Assembly (NCBI GenBank): GCA_017302435.1
Contig: JAFLDL010000009.1
Coordinates: 1-64,000, forward strand
DNA: 64,000 nt
Direction: 5' to 3'
Source of the DNA: Candidatus Accumulibacter necessarius
GTDB taxonomy: Bacteria > Pseudomonadota > Gammaproteobacteria > Burkholderiales > Rhodocyclaceae
Shown here: positions 40,383 to 49,916 of the stretch, in pieces
Position numbering within the stretch: the first letter of the stretch is position 1
How the letters are laid out: every line of letters begins with the position of its first letter
Translations under genes and position numbers: made by a program
Notes under the pieces: generated by a model
Told to the model about the DNA's origin: nothing
Database searches by the model: none
The model's input: only the letters and a program-made list of their open reading frames with translations

Positions 40383-40493
40383 CACACGCCGACATTGAGG
40401 TATTGCCCCCTCGCCCGGCATCTGCACTTGGGCGAGCAGCGGAAGTCGGCTGTTTTGGCACGTAAGGCTGGTTTTTTGGGGTCTTTTCCCGGC

Positions 40494-40529
40494 CCAAAAA
40501 AAGAAGCGGCGCCAGTTGGCTGGCGCCGC
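40494..40529 (-). terminator. Strong terminator after tpiA
   Basis: A perfect 10-bp stem GCGGCGCCAG / CTGGCGCCGC with a TTGG loop is followed, on the minus strand, by TTCTTTTTTT. It ends the pgk-tpiA transcript 18 bp past the tpiA stop and faces the end of rpoD. Confidence 0.93.
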
Positions 40530-40547
40530 CCACTGGAAGTGCGGGGT

Positions 40548-41315
40548 TTACTTGCTGATCGACTCGCCGGGCGTCACGATACCCAGGAAGCTGTCGGCCT
40601 TGAGTGCCGCGCCGCCGATCAGGCCGCCGTCGATATCCTTCTGAGCCAGAAGGCCAGCAGCGTTCTCCGGTTTCATCGAGCCGCCGTACTGGATGCTGAT
40701 CGACTGCGCGACGTTGTCACCATAAAGCTTGGTCAGCAGGCTACGCACGAAAGCATGCGCCTGTTGAGCTTCGTCGTCGCTGGCGGTAACGCCGGTGCCG
40801 ATGGCCCAGACCGGTTCGTAGGCGATGACAGTGCGTAGGGCCTCATCGGCGGACAGCCCGGCATAGGCGCCGTCGACCTGGGTCGTCAGCACCGCTTCCA
40901 GTCGGCCACCCTTGCGTTCAGCCAGGGTCTCGCCGATGCAGATGATCGGTGTCATGTCGAGCGACTGGACCTTCTTGACCTTCTTGTTGACCGTTTCGTC
41001 GGTTTCGCCAAAGTACGTCCGTTGCTCGGAGTGGCCGATGATGACGAAATCAACGCCGATCTCTTTCAGCATATCGGCGCTGACCTTGCCGGTGAATGCA
41101 CCCTGGTTCTCCCAGTGCACGTCCTGCGCTGCCAGCTTGACGTTGCTGCCCTTGAGCACTTCGGCAACCTTGGCGAGAGCGAGGTAGGTCGGTGCGATGG
41201 CAACGACCACGTTCTTGATGTCCTTCGCGGCCGCGACCACGTCGGTTGCCAGTTTCACTGACTCTGCAACCGTCTTGTTCATTTTCCAGTTGCCGGCGAT
41301 AACGATTTTGCGCAT
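40548..41315 (-). CDS. tpiA: Triosephosphate isomerase
   Basis: TpiA interconverts dihydroxyacetone phosphate and glyceraldehyde 3-phosphate. The 255-residue product has the catalytic Lys in NWKMNK, the catalytic His in IIGHSEQR and the catalytic Glu in AYEPVWAIGTG, plus the phosphate loop near IQYGGSMKPENA. The ATG at 41315 (MRKIVIAGNWKMN) is the standard start. In many relatives tpiA is followed by secG; here it ends in a terminator. Confidence 0.98.
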   Translation of the reverse strand: MRKIVIAGNWKMNKTVAESVKLATDVVAAAKDIKNVVVAIAPTYLALAKVAEVLKGSNVKLAAQDVHWENQGAFTGKVSADMLKEIGVDFVIIGHSEQRTYFGETDETVNKKVKKVQSLDMTPIICIGETLAERKGGRLEAVLTTQVDGAYAGLSADEALRTVIAYEPVWAIGTGVTASDDEAQQAHAFVRSLLTKLYGDNVAQSISIQYGGSMKPENAAGLLAQKDIDGGLIGGAALKADSFLGIVTPGESISK

Positions 41316-41361
41316 GGTATTCCTCGAGGTTGTATTGCGGGGATGACTTGGCAAGCGGGTT

Positions 41362-41382
41362 GGCCCCGGCATCGCCGGGGCC
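41362..41382. other. Intercistronic hairpin between pgk and tpiA
   Basis: GGCCCCGGC-atc-GCCGGGGCC, a perfect 9-bp stem without a T tract, lies 8 bp after the pgk stop. It may stabilise the pgk transcript 3' end or tune tpiA expression. Confidence 0.6.
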
Positions 41383-41390
41383 GCGGGAGT

Positions 41391-42647
41391 TTACTTCTCG
41401 GATAGAGCGGCGACGCCAGGCAGGATCTTTCCTTCGAGGTACTCGAGGGACGCGCCTCCGCCGGTCGAACTATGCGTGACCTTCTTGTCGGCGCCGTATT
41501 TCTTCGCGGCGGTGGCTGTGTCACCGCCGCCGATGACGGTGATGGCACCCGCAGCGGTGGCCTGGACAACCGCATCGGCCATCGCCCTGGTGCCGGCTTC
41601 GAATTTTTCGAACTCGAAGACGCCGGCCGGGCCGTTCCAGATAATGGTCCTGGCCTTCAGAATCGCTTCGGTGAATATCCTGGTCGATTCGGGACCGCAG
41701 TCGAGCCCCAGCCAGCCATCGGGAACGCCATCGATATCGTTGGCGCTGCCGGTGCTGGCGTTGGCGTCGAACTTGTCGGCGATGATGAAGTCGACGGGAA
41801 GCAGGATCTGCTTGCCTTTTTCCTTGGCCTTCTTCATCAGGTCCGGTACGAGCTTGGCGCCTTCTTCGTCGAACAGGGAGTTGCCGATCGGCATGTCAGA
41901 GAGCACTTTCTTGAAAGTGAAGGCCATGCCGCCACCAATGATGATCTGGTCGGCCTTGTCGAGCAGATTGTTGATCAACTGGATCTTGTCAGCCACCTTG
42001 GCGCCACCGAGGATCGCCAGCAGCGGCCGTTGCGGCGATTCGAGCACGGCCGAGAAGGCGTCCAGCTCCTTGTTCATCAGGTAACCGGCAGCACGCTGGG
42101 GTAACTGGACGCCGGTCATCGACGAATGGTCGCGGTGGGCAGTACCGAAGGCATCGTTGATGTAGACGTCGGCAAGCCTGGTCAGCGAGGCGCGGAAGGC
42201 CTTCACGTCATCGGGGTTGGCCTTGAGCTTGGTGACCGTACCGTCGGCATTGGTTACGCTGGCTTTGCCTTCTTCCTCGATATGGAAGCGGAGATTTTCG
42301 AGCAGGATGACCTCGCCTGGCTTGATCTGGGCGCAGGCGGATTCGACTTCCGGGCCGACACAATCGCCAACAAACTTCACTGGTTGCCCGAGAAGCCCGG
42401 CGAGGGCGGTGGCAACCGGCGCAAGACTGTATTGCGGCATGGTCTTGCCGTCGGGACGGCCAAGATGAGACATGAGAATGACTGCGGCACCCTTTTCCAG
42501 AGCATACTTGATCGTCGGCAGCGCGGCCTCGATACGCTTGGTGTTGGTGATGGCGCCGGTCACCTTGTCCTGGGGGACGTTGAAGTCAACGCGAATCAGG
42601 GCGCGCTTGCCTTCGAGGGCGAGATCTTCGATGAACAGTTTGGACAT
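41391..42647 (-). CDS. pgk: Phosphoglycerate kinase
   Basis: The 418-residue enzyme transfers phosphate from 1,3-bisphosphoglycerate to ADP. Signatures include [36 protein letters not shown] and the C-terminal ATP-binding [11 protein letters not shown]. The ATG at 42647 ([20 protein letters not shown]) has CTCGAGGAAATC as leader. The arrangement pgk-tpiA in one transcript is unusual in betaproteobacteria, where pgk often precedes pyk and fba. Confidence 0.98.
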
Positions 42648-42869
42648 GATTTCCTCGAGAGTGAGTTGGTGTTGAAAAAGGCTGGAATCAGGATCGAAAA
42701 TGGCATGGTGTCTCCGTATTGGCTGCAAAACGACTCCTCAACAGAGCACTTTTCAGCCACTGCGTTGAGAAAATGAAACATGAGGGAAGGCGTTTCAACC
42801 ACGCAGACGAAGTATCGTTGGCGCCGCTTCCCGAGTCAATTGTCTCTTGTCAAGTGGCAGGTTCAGACT

Positions 42870-44465
42870 TCAGTAATAGATTCTGAAAGCACGCTGTATC
42901 TGCTCAAACTCGTGCAGATACGCTTTCGCTACCTCGCGATTGGTGGCCAGCACCGTCAGGTCATGGGAAAAAACCGATGTGTTGTACCAGTTGAAACTGC
43001 CTTCGATGACTGTCGCGTCGTCGATGATGCAGTACTTGGAATTGATCGGCGAATAGGGTACCGGGTGATCCGTCTGCCCGTAAACTAGTCCGACCGGAAT
43101 CCCGGCTGTTCTCAATCCCTGCACCGCCGGAAGCAATGGGCGGTTGAGTTCATCGGCCATCGATCGTTCTATGCCAACCCTACCTTGCCTGGCCAGATGA
43201 CCGTTGAGCAGGATGTGGACATGGACCCCGCGGTGCTTGGCGTGTATCAAGGCGTCGATCACGCTGTCGCCGTGCTCGCCGAGGAGGTTGCCAATCAGGA
43301 ACAGCGTCAGCTTGATTGAATGCCTTGCGCGGTGAATCTCGGCCAGGATGGCTTGGTGCGGAAGGTAGTGCCGGCCGTCGAGCAGCGAATGTCGGCCGTA
43401 GGTATAGAGCAGGTTGAAGGGACTGAGCGGGTCGATGCCATACTTCTGATTCACCCCGCCGCGCTCGCTCTGGAATACGTTGTCCAGCAGACGGCAAACG
43501 CCCTTCGAATGAAAGGTCATGCCCGATTCCCAATTCGCCCACCAGCGGTCGAAGGTGATGTTGAACGAGCCGAGTATGCAATCCTCATCGTTGAAGATGA
43601 TGAACTTGGTGTGCATGTCGGGATCGACCTCGATCAGGTGATGATGTGGCGTACAGAAAACGCCCACCAGTTCGACGCCGGCGCGCTTCAGTCGCGCATA
43701 GTTTTCGCTATTGGTGAGGGTCATCTTCCGCCAGTCGACAATGCACTGCACCCAGACCCCGTGGTGACTGGCATGCACCAGATGGCGCGTAAAGTCATGG
43801 TCGTCAATGCAGTCCACGCTCACCTTGATGGTGCAAAAGCGCGCGGGATGCTCGTGCTTGGAGCGAATGACCTTGTCGATGTGGTCGTGAATGAAACGCT
43901 TGGGATGATACGGATGATACTGCTGCCCCTTGGTAAACTTGGGAATCAGATGCAGGGAATCGAAATGATGGTTGTACCAGTCGACGTCGCTTTGCAATTG
44001 CCAGGCGTTGCACTCATGTGTGTGATAACCGTTGTGCGTGGCCCACTCCGAGGTGATTCTTCGGTATTGCGGGTGCTCGTCGCGCAACTGCGACCAATCC
44101 ATGAAGATGTACTCGAGCTGCGAGGACACGGAGTGCTCGTCGCGGTGCACGACGAAAGCGAACTTGACACAATTGATGGGCCCGAAACTGCGTGACGAGG
44201 GATGGATGTAGAAATCCCGCGTGCGCCGCTTGTGATGGTTCCACTGAATATCGTAGGGGTCGGTGTCAACAATGTAGGTTTCGCAAATATTGTTGTCCCG
44301 ATAGACCCGGAGGACAACCTTTACGTTCACCTGTACGCCGAACGATACATCGAAGATGATCTTGCCCCAGCGCAGATAGAATTTCTCGTTGAAGTCGTTG
44401 GTCCGCACGAAAGAACCGCCAAGGTTTCCGTGCACCGGGACCGCGTATTTTTCTGCTGTATCCAT
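42870..44465 (-). CDS. Phospholipase D-like protein with two asymmetric HKD motifs
   Basis: A 531-residue protein with two PLD-type repeats. The first motif has His285, Lys287 and then Asn292 where the family has Asp, followed by GSFN. The second has Asn475 where the family has His, with Lys477, Asp482 and GSFN. The two half-sites thus keep complementary catalytic residues. The N-terminal 200 residues are a beta-rich, histidine-rich region (HTHECN, YHPYHPKRFIHDH) I do not recognise. No signal peptide is seen. It is the last gene of a minus-strand run behind the CBM21 protein, separated by a strong hairpin. Substrate (lipid, nucleic acid or glycan) is unknown. Confidence 0.75.
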   Translation of the reverse strand: MDTAEKYAVPVHGNLGGSFVRTNDFNEKFYLRWGKIIFDVSFGVQVNVKVVLRVYRDNNICETYIVDTDPYDIQWNHHKRRTRDFYIHPSSRSFGPINCVKFAFVVHRDEHSVSSQLEYIFMDWSQLRDEHPQYRRITSEWATHNGYHTHECNAWQLQSDVDWYNHHFDSLHLIPKFTKGQQYHPYHPKRFIHDHIDKVIRSKHEHPARFCTIKVSVDCIDDHDFTRHLVHASHHGVWVQCIVDWRKMTLTNSENYARLKRAGVELVGVFCTPHHHLIEVDPDMHTKFIIFNDEDCILGSFNITFDRWWANWESGMTFHSKGVCRLLDNVFQSERGGVNQKYGIDPLSPFNLLYTYGRHSLLDGRHYLPHQAILAEIHRARHSIKLTLFLIGNLLGEHGDSVIDALIHAKHRGVHVHILLNGHLARQGRVGIERSMADELNRPLLPAVQGLRTAGIPVGLVYGQTDHPVPYSPINSKYCIIDDATVIEGSFNWYNTSVFSHDLTVLATNREVAKAYLHEFEQIQRAFRIYY

Positions 44466-44495
44466 GTAAAAGAAAGAACACCTATGTTATTTGGC

Positions 44496-44526
44496 GCGGA
44501 CGCGGCACCGCGGGTGCCGCGTCCGC
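44496..44526. other. Perfect 14-bp intercistronic hairpin
   Basis: GCGGACGCGGCACC-gcg-GGTGCCGCGTCCGC forms a very stable stem between the CBM21 gene and the PLD-like gene. It has no T tract on either strand, so it is more likely an mRNA-stability or attenuation element than a simple terminator. Confidence 0.75.
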
Positions 44527-44545
44527 GATGAAACTCGCCCGCCAC

Positions 44546-46051
44546 TCATGTTGGCTCGAAGGTCATCAGATAGCCGAAATGGTCGGACACTCTTCCATAA
44601 TCCTGCTCGGTAAACACCGCTCGGCCGGCGGTGGCCGCCAGTCCACTTCCCTTGCGGAGGAAAACATAATCAATACGATGATCCTCGTCGAGGTAGCGCT
44701 CCCAATGCGCGTCCTTTGCCGTGAAGATCCGGCGAAAAACCTGCGGCGAGTTTGCCGAAAGATACTGATCATCATATTCGCTGGAATCAACCACGAACTG
44801 ATAACCCCTTGAACCCGCCTTGATGTTGAAGTCGCCACACAGCATGGTCGTGGTGACCTGAGGGGTATGCTCATCAGCCGCCCATTGACGCAGATTCTCG
44901 AATTGCTCGGCGAACCCATCCTCCCACCAGCTCAAGTGTGAAGAGAAGACATTGATCAGGCCGATATAAGGAACCCTCACCTGAGCCATCACCACCTTGC
45001 GCGAGTGGATGCTGTAGGGGTCGCGGCTGCTTGAGACATATCTTCCCTGATGCCTCTCTAACGGGTATCTGCTCAGCACCGCGACCCCCTCGCGATAGCG
45101 GTCAAAACCCAGATGCGACCAATCAGTCACCAGATGATAGGGGGATTTGAGCCGTTCATTGATGATCCGCGCTGTATTGGTCTGCCAGTCGCCCTTGCCA
45201 TTGTTCCATAGCTCGGCCACTTCCTGCAGGCAGACGATATCGACATCCTGCGCGTCAATTGCCCTCGCGATCCGCGATAGCTTGTCATCCTGATTCTCTT
45301 CCTGACAGCAGTGCAGATTCAGGATCATCACCGTCAACGGCCGACGCTGAACCGAGTAGTTCTGGCCGAAGTTGTCATCCCATAGGACTTCCTGCCGGGT
45401 TTCACAAGAGATCCTGTATTGAACCCGACAGGCCGCGTCCACCTTCAGCACGGTATTCCAGATCTGACAACCGTAGTGATTGGGGTTTCTCGCGTTGCTG
45501 AGAAACTCGCTGTCCCAGTAGTTGCGCCCGTAGTGGCAGGCCGACTTGCGCGAGCTCCTCCAGTCGTCTCGCGTCCAGTGAATCGTGACTCTGCGCGCCT
45601 GCAAGGCAGCATCTGCCGCCACGACAACTGGCAAAAGGGTTTGGCCATCAGCCAGACGGCGCCCGAACTCAACATTCAGAAGCGGGCGCTTGTCAGCCAG
45701 CATGATCCCCGAATCTGCCTGCAACGAATGATTCTCACCCTGCTGGTTATCCCAGTACTCCGCCCCGGATACCCGGTAGCGCAAGGCGAACTGGACGCTG
45801 CCAGGAAGTGATTGATCCGTCGCGGCAGCAAAGGCGATCCGGGCGAACCAGTATTCCTGGTTCCGGCCGGCCTTGCCATGATAGGCAGCGGCCAGGGTAT
45901 GCCACACGCCATCTTCGCCGGCCCACGCGACATCAACGCTCTTGTCGAAGGCAAGATCGTCCACCAGAACAAGAAACGACAGGTCCTGCTCGGGCACCGT
46001 TGCTTTTCGGGTGATTACATTCTTTGCGTAGAGTAGATTGATCTTGTTCAT
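44546..46051 (-). CDS. CBM21-CBM21-endonuclease/exonuclease/phosphatase fusion protein
   Basis: The 501-residue product has two N-terminal domains with the CBM21 glycogen/starch-binding hallmark: YWDNQQGEN at about 99-107 and WDDNFGQNY at about 224-232, each ending a beta-sandwich of about 100 residues with an early VDDLAFDKSV-type strand in the first. From residue 240 there is an EEP domain: LNLHCCQEE, CLQEVAE (catalytic Glu), SSHLSWW, CGDFN, DYVFL and the catalytic SDH. No signal peptide is seen. The ATG at 46051 follows GGGGA; a TTG at 46066 overlaps the carbamoyltransferase stop. Substrate is unknown: DNA, RNA, phospholipid or sugar phosphate are possible. Confidence 0.8.
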   Translation of the reverse strand: MNKINLLYAKNVITRKATVPEQDLSFLVLVDDLAFDKSVDVAWAGEDGVWHTLAAAYHGKAGRNQEYWFARIAFAAATDQSLPGSVQFALRYRVSGAEYWDNQQGENHSLQADSGIMLADKRPLLNVEFGRRLADGQTLLPVVVAADAALQARRVTIHWTRDDWRSSRKSACHYGRNYWDSEFLSNARNPNHYGCQIWNTVLKVDAACRVQYRISCETRQEVLWDDNFGQNYSVQRRPLTVMILNLHCCQEENQDDKLSRIARAIDAQDVDIVCLQEVAELWNNGKGDWQTNTARIINERLKSPYHLVTDWSHLGFDRYREGVAVLSRYPLERHQGRYVSSSRDPYSIHSRKVVMAQVRVPYIGLINVFSSHLSWWEDGFAEQFENLRQWAADEHTPQVTTTMLCGDFNIKAGSRGYQFVVDSSEYDDQYLSANSPQVFRRIFTAKDAHWERYLDEDHRIDYVFLRKGSGLAATAGRAVFTEQDYGRVSDHFGYLMTFEPT

Positions 46052-46062
46052 TGTTCCCCACG

Positions 46063-47847
46063 TCAAGGGGCAAATGCAGAGGTTGGAGATTGGTCTGAAT
46101 CGGTCTTCGTCGCTGCTGGCGCTTTCACCACCAGTACATCTTCCATGACCAAATACTGCAGGTCGGACCCGAAGAACATGTTCAGGGCATCGGTCGGTGA
46201 GCAGATCATCGGCTCGCCGCGGCGGTTGAGCGAAGTGTTGAGAACGACACCATTACCGGTCAGCTTCTCGAGTTCTACCATCAGATCATAATAGCGTGGG
46301 TTGAACTCGCGCTGCAGCACCTGCGCGCGCGATGTCCCGTCCTCGTGCACCACTTCGGGAACGCGTTCCTTCCAGCCTTTGGCTACCTTGAAGGTGAAGG
46401 TCATGAAGGGCGCCGGATGTTCGCTGCCCAGCATCTGTGGTCCGACAGTGTCGAGCATGCTGGGGCAGAAGGGGCGCCAGCGTTCGCGGAACTTGATCTG
46501 GGCATTGATTCGGTCGGCGACGCCGGGGGCACTCGGGCAACCGAGGATCGAACGTCCGCCAAGGGCCCGCGGGCCAAACTCCATTCGCCCCTGAAACCAG
46601 GCCACCGGCTGCCCGTCGGCGAGCAGTCGGGCAATGTGCTGCGGCACGTCGCTCAACCGTTGCCATGCAGGCCGCGCCGGATGGCGAGCACAGGCGGCGA
46701 CGACGTCTTCGTTGCTGTACGCGGGGCCCAGGTAGACATGCTCCATCTTCTCAACTGCAACGCCCCGCTGTACGGACACATAGGCCGCGGCACCGACAGC
46801 GGTGCCGGCGTCGCCCGAGGCAGGCTGAACGAAGAGTTCGCGGACGTCCGAACGGGCAATGATCTTCTGGTTGAGCTTGACGTTCAATGCGCCGCCACCC
46901 GAAAAGGCAAGTCGGCCGGTCTCCCGCAGAATCTCTCCCAGGTAATGCTCGATCATCCGAAGGGAGAGGTCCTCGAAGAGCTTCTGCATGCTTGCTGCGT
47001 AGTGGATGTAGGGGTCGTCGGCGATGTCTCCCGAACGTTTGGGACCCAGCCATTCGACCAGCTTGGGCGAAAAGTAGTAGCCCTTGCCGTTCTCCTTGTA
47101 ACGACGGAAGCCGATCACGTTGGCATAGGCGGTGTTGACCGTCAGCTCGCCATCCTCGAACTTCGCCAGGCGCGAGAAATCGTATCGGTCAGGATCGCCG
47201 TAAGGCGCCATGCCCATTACCTTGTACTCGCCGTCGAGCATCTCGAAACCGAGATACTCGGTCAGAGCGCCATACAGGCCGCCCAACGAATCGGGATCGT
47301 AGAATTCCTTGAGCTTGTGGATCCTGCCGTTCTCGCCGTAGCCGAAGAAGGTGGTCGCGTATTCGCCCTTGCCGTCGATGCCGAGAATCGCCGTCTTTTC
47401 CTTGAAACCGGCGCAATGGTAAGCACTGGCGGCATGTGCGAGGTGATGCTCGACCGGCACGATGTCCGTCTTCTTCAGGTCGAAGCCAAGTTGCAGGAGG
47501 CACCACTCGATACGCTTACGGTAGCGATGGAAGCGCCGGTTGCCGGTCAGGATCGCGTCCAGTCCGCGGTCGGGAGCATACCAGTAGCGTTTCGCATAGT
47601 GCCAGCGCGCCGGTTCCGAAAGGCTGATCGGGGCAAAGGGGATAGCCACCGCGTCTACGTCCTGCGGCCTGAGGCCGGCAAACTCCAGGCAGAACTTCGC
47701 GGCCTCGTAGGGCATACGGTTCTTGGCGTGCTTGTCGCGAACGAAACGCTCCTCCTCTGCCGCTGCGACGAGCTTGCCGTCGATATAGAGCGCTGCCGAA
47801 GGATCGTGGGTCAATGCGCCGGACAGGCCGAGTAGGGTCAGTGCCAA
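46063..47847 (-). CDS. NodU/CmcH-family carbamoyltransferase
   Basis: A 594-residue O-carbamoyltransferase. The N-terminal Kae1-like domain has the metal-binding EHHLAHAASAY (His134, His138), GIDGKGEYATT and SGGGALNVKLNQ. The C-terminal carbamoyltransferase domain has FGPRALGGRSIL, FRERWRPFCPS and LNTSLNRRGEPM. Such enzymes make carbamoyl adenylate and transfer it to a hydroxyl of an antibiotic, Nod factor or glycan; the acceptor here is unknown. The start is a TTG (47847), as the family begins at this point and no ATG is available. It lies between an lpxL-like gene and the CBM21 gene on the same strand. Confidence 0.92.
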   Translation of the reverse strand: MALTLLGLSGALTHDPSAALYIDGKLVAAAEEERFVRDKHAKNRMPYEAAKFCLEFAGLRPQDVDAVAIPFAPISLSEPARWHYAKRYWYAPDRGLDAILTGNRRFHRYRKRIEWCLLQLGFDLKKTDIVPVEHHLAHAASAYHCAGFKEKTAILGIDGKGEYATTFFGYGENGRIHKLKEFYDPDSLGGLYGALTEYLGFEMLDGEYKVMGMAPYGDPDRYDFSRLAKFEDGELTVNTAYANVIGFRRYKENGKGYYFSPKLVEWLGPKRSGDIADDPYIHYAASMQKLFEDLSLRMIEHYLGEILRETGRLAFSGGGALNVKLNQKIIARSDVRELFVQPASGDAGTAVGAAAYVSVQRGVAVEKMEHVYLGPAYSNEDVVAACARHPARPAWQRLSDVPQHIARLLADGQPVAWFQGRMEFGPRALGGRSILGCPSAPGVADRINAQIKFRERWRPFCPSMLDTVGPQMLGSEHPAPFMTFTFKVAKGWKERVPEVVHEDGTSRAQVLQREFNPRYYDLMVELEKLTGNGVVLNTSLNRRGEPMICSPTDALNMFFGSDLQYLVMEDVLVVKAPAATKTDSDQSPTSAFAP

Positions 47848-47993
47848 AGTGTCGAGGTCTCAGAGGATCACATTTTCGGCCCACGGCGCGTGAAAGCGGC
47901 CGCTGACCGACGAATTCGCCAAGTATACCCGTGGCGGACCCTCTTCGGTTCCACTGCCGGAGGAAGCTGCCCGGCGATCGGCCCGGGGGAGGA

Positions 47994-48869
47994 TCAATAG
48001 GGGCGTGGCTCGCCCGCTGGCCGGGTCTTGAAACGACGATGGACCCAGTAGTACTGCTCAGGCAGGGTGCGCACGGCCGCTTCGATCCAGGCGTTCATGC
48101 GGCGGGTGTCGGCCTCGACGTCGTCGGTCGGAAAATCCTGCCATGGCTCGCCAACCGTCACGACATAGCCCTCGCCGCCGGGCAGGATGCGCGTCAGGCA
48201 GGGGACGACGGTAGCTCCGGCCAGGTGTGCCAGTCGCGACAGACCGGGAACGGTTGCCGCCAGGACACCAAAAAAAGGGACAAAAATCGAATCCTTGCGC
48301 CCGAAATCCATGTCCGGCAGGTAGTACAGCGGGCGCCCTGCCTTCATCGCCCGGATACTGGCGCGCACGCTTGCGTCACGCGACAGCAGCAGCTGATCGC
48401 CAAAACGACAACGGCCGCGTAGCAATAGGCGGTCAAAGACGGCGTTCGACTGTTCGGCGTAGATACTCGCGCTGTCGAAGCGCATGGCAATCCCGGCGCC
48501 GCCGGCGTCGAGCCCGACGAAGTGTGGCGTCAGCATCAGCACTGGCTGGCCGGCCGCGAGCAGCGTCCGCATTCGCTCTTCGCCCTCCACCCGAATCAGC
48601 CGCGACAGCCTCTCCGGACGGGCCCAGAGCAGCAGACTGCGCTCGAGCACACTGCGGCCCAGCACCCTGAAATGTGCTTTCGCCAGCAGTCGACGCTGTT
48701 CATCATCGCGTTCCGGGAAGCACAGGCGAAGATTCACCAGGACAATGTGCCGGCGCCGACGGGCAAGCAAGAAAAAGGCACTGCCGAGCGCATTACCGCA
48801 GGCCGCCAGAACGGACAAGGGCAGGAAATGCAGCAGCCAGAGCGCTGCGACGAGCAGTCGACTCAGCAC
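47994..48869 (-). CDS. LpxL/HtrB-family lysophospholipid acyltransferase
   Basis: A 291-residue lipid A late acyltransferase that adds a secondary acyl chain to Kdo-lipid A at the inner membrane. An N-terminal membrane anchor (LVAALWLLHFLPLSVLAACG) precedes the catalytic HX4D motif (HFVGLD, about residue 116) and the PDMDFGRKDSIFVPFFG block. The C-terminal EQYYWVHRRFKTRP is diagnostic. In many betaproteobacteria two such genes lie next to metK; metK is not present here. Confidence 0.92.
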   Translation of the reverse strand: MLSRLLVAALWLLHFLPLSVLAACGNALGSAFFLLARRRRHIVLVNLRLCFPERDDEQRRLLAKAHFRVLGRSVLERSLLLWARPERLSRLIRVEGEERMRTLLAAGQPVLMLTPHFVGLDAGGAGIAMRFDSASIYAEQSNAVFDRLLLRGRCRFGDQLLLSRDASVRASIRAMKAGRPLYYLPDMDFGRKDSIFVPFFGVLAATVPGLSRLAHLAGATVVPCLTRILPGGEGYVVTVGEPWQDFPTDDVEADTRRMNAWIEAAVRTLPEQYYWVHRRFKTRPAGEPRPY

Positions 48870-49254
48870 CGGCTCAGGTGGCAGCAGTCAGCCTCGCCTC
48901 GATACAGGTCTTTCATGCCAGGCAGCCTCATGCCACGGTTGGTTGGTCGGATGTTCAGGCGTCTTTGGCGCGGTATTGTACTTTCATCCAGGCGACGCCG
49001 ACGCGCTTTTCCGCATGCGCCATAGCGACACAGCGCATCCCGATGATGGTCAAGGCCGCACCGGCAGCCGTGCGGACCGCCTTGTTTGCGGGCATGCTGC
49101 AAGTCGTCAGTGCCGGCACCTTGCGCCAAGGTGTGTTGAATGGCTTTGAGCATGCCAAAGCGCTCTGCCTGGGTCGACTCTCCCTTGGCAGGGTCGCATA
49201 ATGGATGTGTATAATTAGTGTGTAAAGCAATAGATCACAAAGGGAGGGTGAGTC
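48870..49254. other. Intergenic region between lpxL-like gene and vapBC
   Basis: A minus-strand frame ending at 48955 translates to a plausible-looking tail (TAAGAALTIIGMRCVAMAHAE) but belongs to no family I recognise and runs antisense through vapB, so I do not call it. A TATAAT hexamer at 49210-49215 with two TGTGTA repeats around it (49206-49223) is the probable vapBC promoter/operator; TTGGCA at 49185-49190 could be its -35 with a long 19-bp spacer. Confidence 0.45.
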
Positions 49255-49482
49255 ATGGCTCATCGAGTCAATATCGTACTGGATGACGATGTTTGGCAAC
49301 GCTTCCAGGCCATTCCAGGTGGCGAGCGCAGTCGTTTTGTCAATGAAGTGATTTCGGTGGAACTGCTCAGGCGGCAGCAGCAGCAGGCGTGGGCAGGCAT
49401 ACAGTCCTTGCGCGGCACTCTGCCGCCAATTCCTGGGCGGAGCGAGGACTGGGTCCGGGAAGATCGGGATGCGCTGCCGTGA
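49255..49482 (+). CDS. VapB-like ribbon-helix-helix antitoxin
   Basis: A 75-residue protein opening MAHRVNIVLDDDVWQRFQAI, a CopG-type ribbon-helix-helix pattern, with ERSRFVNEVISVELLRR as the second helix. The acidic, tryptophan-containing C-terminus (SEDWVREDRD) is the likely toxin-neutralising segment. AGGGAGGGTG is a good ribosome binding site. Its stop overlaps the toxin GTG by 4 bp, the classic translational coupling of type II toxin-antitoxin pairs. Confidence 0.85.
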   Translation: MAHRVNIVLDDDVWQRFQAIPGGERSRFVNEVISVELLRRQQQQAWAGIQSLRGTLPPIPGRSEDWVREDRDALP

Positions 49483-49916
49483 ACACGGTGGTACTTGATG
49501 CATCGATACTGCTCAAATGGGTGTTGCCTGAGACGGAGGAGGATTTCATCGCTCAGGCGAATGACATTGGGGCGGCAGCTCTGACGGGCCGAGTGTGCTT
49601 GCTGGTTCCATCGCTCTGGTACTACGAAGTCGGCAATATCGTGGCGCGGAACATCCCCGACCACGCGAGTGCGGCAATGAATCATCTCAGCTCCCTTCTC
49701 GCGCCATGGACACGGGCGCCCACGCCTGAAGTCCAGACGCTGACCCTGGATTTGATGCGCAGCCACGGAGTGACTTTCTACGATGCCAGCTACCACGCTC
49801 TGGCAATCGCCAGTCGCGGCGTGCTGATCACAGCCGATGCACTTTATGTTCGCAAGGTGGGTGTAGGCGACAATCTCATGGCCCTCGCCGATTGGCCGCC
49901 ACACGGATCCGCATAA
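49479..49916 (+). CDS. VapC-like PIN-domain toxin
   Basis: A 145-residue PIN-domain ribonuclease toxin. The four acidic positions are visible: Asp in VVLDASILLKW, Glu in SLWYYEVGN, Asp in VTFYDASYHALA and Asp in ITADALYVRK. The GTG start at 49479 overlaps the antitoxin stop; an open frame extends upstream but only as a shadow of vapB. VapC toxins cleave tRNA or rRNA; the target of this one is unknown. Confidence 0.9.
   Translation: MNTVVLDASILLKWVLPETEEDFIAQANDIGAAALTGRVCLLVPSLWYYEVGNIVARNIPDHASAAMNHLSSLLAPWTRAPTPEVQTLTLDLMRSHGVTFYDASYHALAIASRGVLITADALYVRKVGVGDNLMALADWPPHGSA

Follow-up and report, generated by a model that had tools for sequence, protein, structure and literature searches.

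A CBM21-EEP fusion protein as a candidate glycogen-tethered glucan phosphatase in Accumulibacter and Methylococcales

Introduction

What does a bacterial protein do that joins two CBM21 modules to an EEP-type hydrolase? The question is raised by a gene of Candidatus Accumulibacter necessarius located in the window, by which we mean the whole stretch of 64,000 nucleotides analysed here (contig JAFLDL010000009.1, positions 1 to 64,000). The original prediction, made from the DNA letters, was that an EEP-type enzyme (a phosphodiesterase, phosphatase or nuclease) is tethered to glycogen. The tethering is now supported, indirectly, by the sugar-contact residues, by the glycogen gene context of Methylococcales-type relatives and by an EEP domain of the MapP group, and of the three activities the evidence favours phosphatase. 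We propose, at a little below an even chance, that CBM21-EEP is a glycogen-tethered glucan phosphatase, analogous and not homologous to laforin, with an obligate partner of the PLD family.

The domains are each known, and the CBM21-EEP architecture, the PLD partner and the place among glycogen genes are new to the literature searched. No description of the architecture was found there by title or abstract start, most subscription journals lying outside the search, and the view that no CBM21-EEP fusion has been characterised still stands after it.

Domain architecture

The gene and its parts are as follows.

44546..46051, minus strand: CBM21-CBM21-EEP protein, 501 aa; ATG at 46051, stop at 44548-44546
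45692..46051, minus strand: CBM21 module 1, residues 1-120; both alpha-glucan sites kept (W50, W100, N102, N107; F35, K37, Y57, E66)
45332..45685, minus strand: CBM21 module 2, residues 123-240; site I kept (W164, W224, N231), site II not; invariant loop SNARNPN at 185-191
44549..45337, minus strand: EEP domain of the MapP-like group, residues 239-501; catalytic residues present

The coordinates 44546-46051 given originally are right and the strand is minus; the plus strand of this interval has many stops. The ATG lies 11 bases past the stop of the upstream gene and is preceded by GTGGGGA, and a promoter and terminator scan of 40400-49200 gave no more matches than were found in shuffles. Two stretches of the 501-aa protein match the Pfam family CBM_21 (PF03370; 65.7 bits against a cut-off of 28.9, E 5.5e-18), and the modules scored singly give 39.4 and 32.5 bits, both above the same cut-off, bearing out the two N-terminal CBM21 domains that had been proposed. 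Residues 245-491 match Exo_endo_phos (65.6 bits against a cut-off of 24.5, E 6.9e-18). Both the CBM21 and the EEP matches are far above chance. The possibility that the fusion is a chance match or an artefact was rejected, the architecture being kept in 97 loci (L131 is cut by a contig end). The YWDN hallmark attributed to both modules is present in module 1 (residues 99-102) but not in module 2, which has LWDDNFGQNY. No signal peptide is apparent by eye, in agreement with the original reading.

A profile of 48 orthologues compared with solved chains matches the Rhizopus glucoamylase structure 2djm (1.4e-7) and PPP1R3A 2m83 (5.3e-4) over module 1, and PPP1R3B 2eef (7.2e-7) and PPP1R3C 7qf7 (5.1e-6) over module 2. 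Structure prediction of residues 1-240, suggested at the outset as a check for two CBM21 folds, was run on the whole protein: the AlphaFold2 model (48 rows, mean pLDDT 90, pTM 0.80) is nearly all beta over residues 1-236, mostly with confidence, and EEP-like after 236, and the best Foldseek match of the whole model is 3teb, an EEP protein. Because the best 50 Foldseek matches listed are all EEP-type structures, the CBM21 fold assignment rests on sequence.

Sugar-contact and catalytic residues

The best solved match of module 1, RoSBD (the CBM21 of Rhizopus oryzae glucoamylase, 2djm), belongs to a fungal amylase, and both of its ligand sites align with the module; its ligand residues are taken from the available part of PMC3398936. 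At site I, W50, W100, N102 and N107 correspond to W47, Y94, N96 and N101 of RoSBD, and at site II, F35, K37, Y57 and E66 correspond to Y32, K34, F58 and E68. The sole site exception in the module 1 match is the position of RoSBD Y83, which is A89 in the window protein and A, G or S in 46/48 orthologues; the position of RoSBD N29 is D32 in the window protein and N in 43/48. Among the same 48 orthologues W50, K37 and E66 are kept in 48/48, N102 in 47/48, N107 in 46/48 and W100 in 44/48, position 35 is Y, F or H in 47/48, position 57 is Y, F, H or W in 48/48, and W68, W159 and W164 are invariant. Module 2 keeps the site I residues W164, W224 and N231 and lacks those of site II, with position 226 being N in 36/48 rows and D in 10. 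The site I contacts of PTG (Trp193, Trp246, Asn248 and Asn253, according to the part of PMC9582199 available) look like equivalents of the site I positions of the modules by alignment, the numbering being as read off the alignment. The PPP1R3 subunits of PP1 (PTG, GM and GL) thus resemble CBM21-EEP in a CBM21 with equivalent sugar-contact residues, as far as alignment can tell, but they recruit a separate protein phosphatase, whereas in CBM21-EEP the enzyme is fused.

The EEP domain is intact, as had been claimed: its CLQEV, SSH, GDFN and SDH motifs are present, and the catalytic residues are kept in 48/48 orthologues, with N245, E277, H372, D407, N409, D461, D490 and H491 invariant. Because the catalytic and sugar-contact residues are kept, the protein looks, by sequence, both active and sugar-binding. 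From these residues and the gene context described below, we consider it likely that the CBM21 modules dock the protein on glycogen.

The SNARNPN loop of module 2 (residues 185-191, window 45479-45499) is invariant in 48/48 orthologues, although the model is less confident there; a contact with the EEP active site or with the glucan is possible.

Relationship of the EEP domain to MapP

In Enterococcus faecalis the gene downstream of malT encodes MapP, a maltose-6-phosphate phosphatase that had earlier been suggested to be an EEP-family protein without assigned function, as stated in the available part of PMC3737437. In a plasmid collection the matches outside the CBM21-EEP group are EEP proteins, 37 of 62 from Enterococcus and nine each from Lactococcus and Leclercia. 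In the three plasmid loci examined, a PTS IIBC gene precedes the EEP gene, with GH65 and beta-phosphoglucomutase genes alongside, and the same PTS-EEP gene order is found in L185 (OR846610.1), which is filed as an Enterococcus phage with host E. faecalis and is probably host DNA, because the record contains a maltose-type operon. From its gene order we infer that the 274-aa EEP ORF of L185 is MapP.

This ORF is 29% identical to the EEP domain of the window protein over nearly the whole domain, and when compared with the window's genome, in which four EEP genes were found, it matches only CBM21-EEP (4.9e-18, and 5.85 for another segment of that gene). The solved chain 3teb ranks first both for the CBM21-EEP profile (3.8e-31) and for the MapP ORF (4.5e-30), with a wide gap to the next EEP. 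In an IQ-TREE analysis CBM21-EEP, EEP-only paralogues, MapP with two plasmid relatives, and L181 and L182 share a branch (support 96/97) that excludes L019 and the window genome's three other EEPs; the join of MapP with the EEP-only proteins carries a long-branch warning, and CBM21-EEP as one side of a branch has modest support (80/77). In these comparisons the EEP domain of CBM21-EEP groups with MapP, the closest characterised relative found for the catalytic domain. MapP differs in being a lone domain (274 aa in L185) in a maltose PTS operon, without binding modules and without a PLD; CBM21-EEP loci lack that operon context, their neighbours being glycogen or other genes. Points that count against a glucan phosphatase here are the identity to MapP of only 29% and the nearest solved structure, 3teb from Leptotrichia buccalis, an EEP protein that has no CBM and no stated function.

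EEP-only paralogues of about 280 aa (L149-L160 and L172) occur in 39 of 201 Methylococcales genomes, with a shorter match in G813. In L172 an EEP-only gene lies directly downstream of CBM21-EEP, and the PLD of that genome is on another contig. The paralogues were rejected as a context clue: across 12 loci, the only cluster present in more than three is a family of small ORFs (6 loci).

Distribution of CBM21-EEP

Full-length CBM21-EEP is present in 17 of 28 sampled Accumulibacter genomes. It is missing from the other 11, three of them listed as 100% complete, and is therefore dispensable. It was found in 0/9 genomes of other genera of the family, one of which (G034) encodes three tandem-CBM21 proteins without EEP, and a CBM21 match of any kind occurs in 7/300 genomes of the window's order. 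In a sample of 369 genomes of the class, the full-length protein is confined to the window's own genome.

A pattern scan of GTDB contigs gave 117 loci. The 80 retained comprise 13 Accumulibacter-type and 67 Methylococcales-type loci. L066 was counted with the former though titled only Pseudomonadota bacterium, and the latter are Methylococcales by title except L129 (proteobacterium), L130 (gammaproteobacterium) and L140 (methanotrophic gill symbiont). In the order of Methylobacter the gene is present in 93 of 201 sampled Methylococcales genomes, counted from 95 with matches by leaving out G879 and G895 (EEP-only) and keeping G864 and G899 (partial matches). The search for homologues of the same architecture thus yielded orthologues in Accumulibacter and in Methylococcales, and the family reaches far beyond Accumulibacter, a point absent from the original prediction. 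In a FastTree tree of 97 different proteins, which is unrooted, the 14 Accumulibacter rows form one side of a branch with support 100. Lateral transfer of CBM21-EEP is plausible from this unrooted tree. Carriage as phage or plasmid cargo was rejected: pattern scans of viral contigs gave no relative of CBM21-EEP or of the PLD, and the listed matches in plasmid and phage records cover the EEP domain only.

Other genomes of the window's order (L055-L062) encode proteins of roughly 260 aa that consist of tandem CBM21 modules. Several appear to begin with a signal peptide, and three of these eight loci (L055, L057 and L059) have two such genes one after the other. These stand-alone proteins share the two CBM21 modules with the window protein (26-31% identity) but have no EEP domain and an apparent signal peptide.

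A PLD-family partner

The CBM21-EEP gene has a neighbour on which the original prediction was silent.

42870..44465, minus strand: 531-aa partner; two PLD (HKD) repeats and an N-terminal beta domain (about residues 8-136) that matches no known family

The partner lies directly downstream (PLDc_2 2.2e-32 in Pfam). Its N-terminal domain is modelled with strands over residues 8-136 (mean pLDDT 75.5), and it matches no Pfam family beyond two single-member matches of 29 (E 0.04 and 0.17) and no solved chain at E up to 10. The suggestion that it is a third CBM21 is unsupported, with hhalign probabilities of 1.1 and 0.5 against the two modules and 92.6 in the control comparison of module 1 with module 2.

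The PLD is directly downstream (same strand, within 700 bases) in 87 of the 92 loci with room to tell. It is next downstream in 74 of the 83 Methylococcales-type loci, not in five (L122, L125, L166, L172 and L173), and four have no room; for the 14 Accumulibacter-type loci, window included, the figures are 13 next downstream and one without room. The two genes are adjacent in 15/15 loci of other genomes, L049 ending too early, and in L045, L046, L053 and L054 the pair is intact although the other neighbours differ from the window's. In L166, L172 and L173 (genomes G774, G903 and G888) the PLD is elsewhere in the same genome.

All 93 CBM21-EEP carriers among the 201 Methylococcales genomes have the PLD, which is present in 95/201 overall and is found without CBM21-EEP in two, G808 and G895 (Fisher p 4e-56, shared descent ignored). 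The pair is adjacent on one strand in 82 carriers, on different contigs in seven (G727 and G891 have them at contig ends and perhaps adjacent), and on one contig but 17 kb to 1.6 Mb apart in four (G788, G848, G774 and G824). Because the genes are far apart in these four, linkage alone fails to explain the co-occurrence. No PLD relative was found at E 1e-20 in 397 other genomes of a phylum sample (0/397). Between the window and the Methylococcales-type proteins the PLD, at about 69-79% identity, is better conserved than CBM21-EEP at 52-61%. The best reading is that the PLD is an obligate partner of CBM21-EEP.

The HKD residues of the partner are nearly invariant (H285, K287 and K477 in 41/41, H475 in 40/41), and the sole exception in 41 rows is the window's own PLD, in which Asn475 replaces the His of the second HKD motif. 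This copy may be impaired, or the base responsible may be an assembly error; the substitution counts against the proposal.

A phosphatase alone leaves the obligatory PLD unexplained, which also counts against the proposal. In a two-enzyme system, which we think rather unlikely, the PLD would cleave phosphodiester-linked groups off glycogen and the MapP-type phosphatase would then remove the leftover monoester. If this were true, bacterial glycogen would carry phosphate esters or diesters relevant to branching and turnover, and there would be a dedicated glycogen repair system unrelated to laforin.

Structural comparison also lends something to other activities, and to that extent counts against glucan phosphatase action: the Foldseek matches listed for the predicted structures include nucleases for both proteins, together with sphingomyelinases for the EEP and lipases for the PLD. 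That the two proteins are a nuclease pair clearing nucleic acid from the glycogen granule is quite improbable in our view. Nucleases do occur in both superfamilies, the matches listed include TDP2 for the EEP and PLD3 and PLD4 for the partner, and weak profile matches of the partner include a Nuc-type endonuclease and NucT, but the EEP domain groups by sequence with MapP, apart from the genome's three other EEP genes, and there is no nucleic-acid theme in the CBM21-EEP neighbourhoods examined. A lipid-active pair, with a sphingomyelinase-type EEP and a phospholipase D working at a membrane or lipid layer that surrounds the granule, is very unlikely: no lipid-binding family was found in either protein by Pfam and profile searches and the closest characterised kin of the EEP is MapP. 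In favour of such a pair are the phospholipid hydrolases in both superfamilies, the Foldseek matches listed, with human neutral sphingomyelinases among those of the EEP and phospholipases D among those of the partner, and the N-terminal beta domain that plant PLDs also have. For CBM21-EEP itself, glucan phosphatase remains the reading that we prefer.

Glycogen genes and other neighbours

Directly upstream (same strand, within 500 bases of CBM21-EEP) the 83 Methylococcales-type loci have a GH57 branching enzyme in 39, GlgA in 17, neither in 23 and no room in four, so that a branching enzyme or glycogen synthase is the immediate upstream neighbour in 56 of the 79 loci with room. This is independent evidence in support of the glycogen target guessed originally. 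Some glycogen gene is present anywhere in the locus in 61/83, and Pfam assigns the neighbour representatives to GlgA, GH57 with BE_C, a GlgX-like isoamylase, GlgB, GlgC and a DUF4912 protein. Two gene orders are seen repeatedly, GlgC / GlgB-GlgA-CBM21EEP-PLD and GlgX / DUF4912-GH57BE-CBM21EEP-PLD, and for the most part they occupy separate regions of the tree. The state of the upstream gene (GH57, GlgA or none) changes at least 13 times on it, so the association with glycogen genes has arisen, disappeared or shifted repeatedly. A GlgA gene is found in 92/93 carriers versus 81/108 non-carriers, a difference that genome completeness may confound.

Some of these observations count against the proposal. 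Neither GlgA nor GH57 is directly upstream in 23/79 Methylococcales-type loci, and in Accumulibacter the count is 0/14; GlgA is also retained by the 81 of 108 Methylococcales genomes that lack CBM21-EEP. The best GlgA match of the window's genome is on another contig (C78). Also against the proposal, the analysis turned up no source of the phosphate on glycogen.

Two further explanations bear on this context. Acting at the granule, CBM21-EEP might use small soluble substrates (phosphorylated maltodextrins, ADP-glucose or another sugar nucleotide) and so tune precursor supply, which we judge unlikely. Such a role would fit the action of MapP on a disaccharide phosphate (PMC3737437, part available), GlgA upstream in 17/79 Methylococcales-type loci and the GlgC-type cluster in 16/67, but a soluble substrate would not call for two binding modules in which the polymer-contact residues are kept, and MapP removes a monoester and does not cleave a pyrophosphate bond. 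It is highly improbable that the modules bind another alpha-glucan and that the glycogen gene context is incidental; the stand-alone tandem CBM21 proteins of the window's order do look secreted, by eye, but CBM21-EEP has no signal peptide, glycogen genes lie next door in two different arrangements, and GlgA is nearly universal among the carriers.

A DUF4912 ORF upstream of the GH57 branching enzyme, often between GH57 and GlgX (L081:2754-3494; 13 of the 16 loci L161-L176), is possibly another glycogen protein.

Proposed role in glycogen metabolism

As a glucan phosphatase CBM21-EEP would be a cytoplasmic enzyme that docks on glycogen through its two CBM21 modules, and its metal-dependent MapP-type EEP domain would hydrolyse phosphate esters on the alpha-glucan, with the PLD-family partner working alongside. 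MapP dephosphorylates an alpha-1,4-glucose disaccharide, and the joining of a domain of its type to two glycogen-binding modules points to dephosphorylation of glycogen. By taking off phosphate, the enzyme would leave the glucan well suited to the branching enzyme, whose gene is a frequent neighbour of CBM21-EEP in methanotrophs. Branching enzymes bind alpha-glucans less tightly when these carry phosphate monoesters, and phosphorylation of glycogen in organisms without laforin, bacteria included, is left to speculation, at least in the part of PMC13011383 available. A glucan phosphatase whose gene comes right behind that of a branching enzyme would fit this picture. On balance we hold alpha-glucan phosphatase action to be possible, just short of probable.

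The protein would play in bacteria the part of laforin and SEX4, though its domains are unrelated to theirs. Laforin, as described in the parts of the literature available, shares the plan of CBM21-EEP in which an alpha-glucan binding module is joined to a phosphatase. The same plan is seen in SEX4. Laforin and SEX4 have a dual-specificity phosphatase domain, not an EEP domain, and CBMs of families other than CBM21. A Pfam search at E up to 1 found no dual-specificity phosphatase domain in CBM21-EEP, which is therefore laforin-like in plan but no laforin, the defining phosphatase domain being absent.

CBM21-EEP is a specific candidate for phosphate removal from bacterial glycogen, and the papers listed by our literature search (12 of 128) include no bacterial enzyme that removes glycogen phosphate. 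It occurs in two groups of ecological weight, the phosphorus-removing Accumulibacter and the methane-oxidising Methylococcales, and the co-occurring PLD points to a chemistry at the glycogen granule that has no description in the literature searched. A cultured host is available in Methylobacter tundripaludum SV96 (L087, genome G708), in which the CBM21-EEP/PLD pair comes after a GH57 enzyme. The strain accumulates glycogen and has two branching enzyme copies with opposite temperature patterns of expression, as reported in the part of PMC10030640 available.

Other genes at the Accumulibacter locus

The gene immediately upstream of CBM21-EEP in the window is the following.

46063..47847, minus strand: NodU-like carbamoyltransferase, 11 bases upstream of the CBM21-EEP ATG

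Many Accumulibacter loci have the order NodU-like carbamoyltransferase, CBM21-EEP and PLD, ahead of Pgk and TpiA, and the carbamoyltransferase together with a lipid A-type acyltransferase (window 46063-48869, minus strand) accompanies the pair in many of them. By tblastn neither was found in the Methylococcales-type loci, and for this reason the NodU-like carbamoyltransferase is probably not part of the CBM21-EEP/PLD module. A PIN-domain ORF (9.9e-8 in Pfam) is located on the plus strand of the window at 49389-49916.
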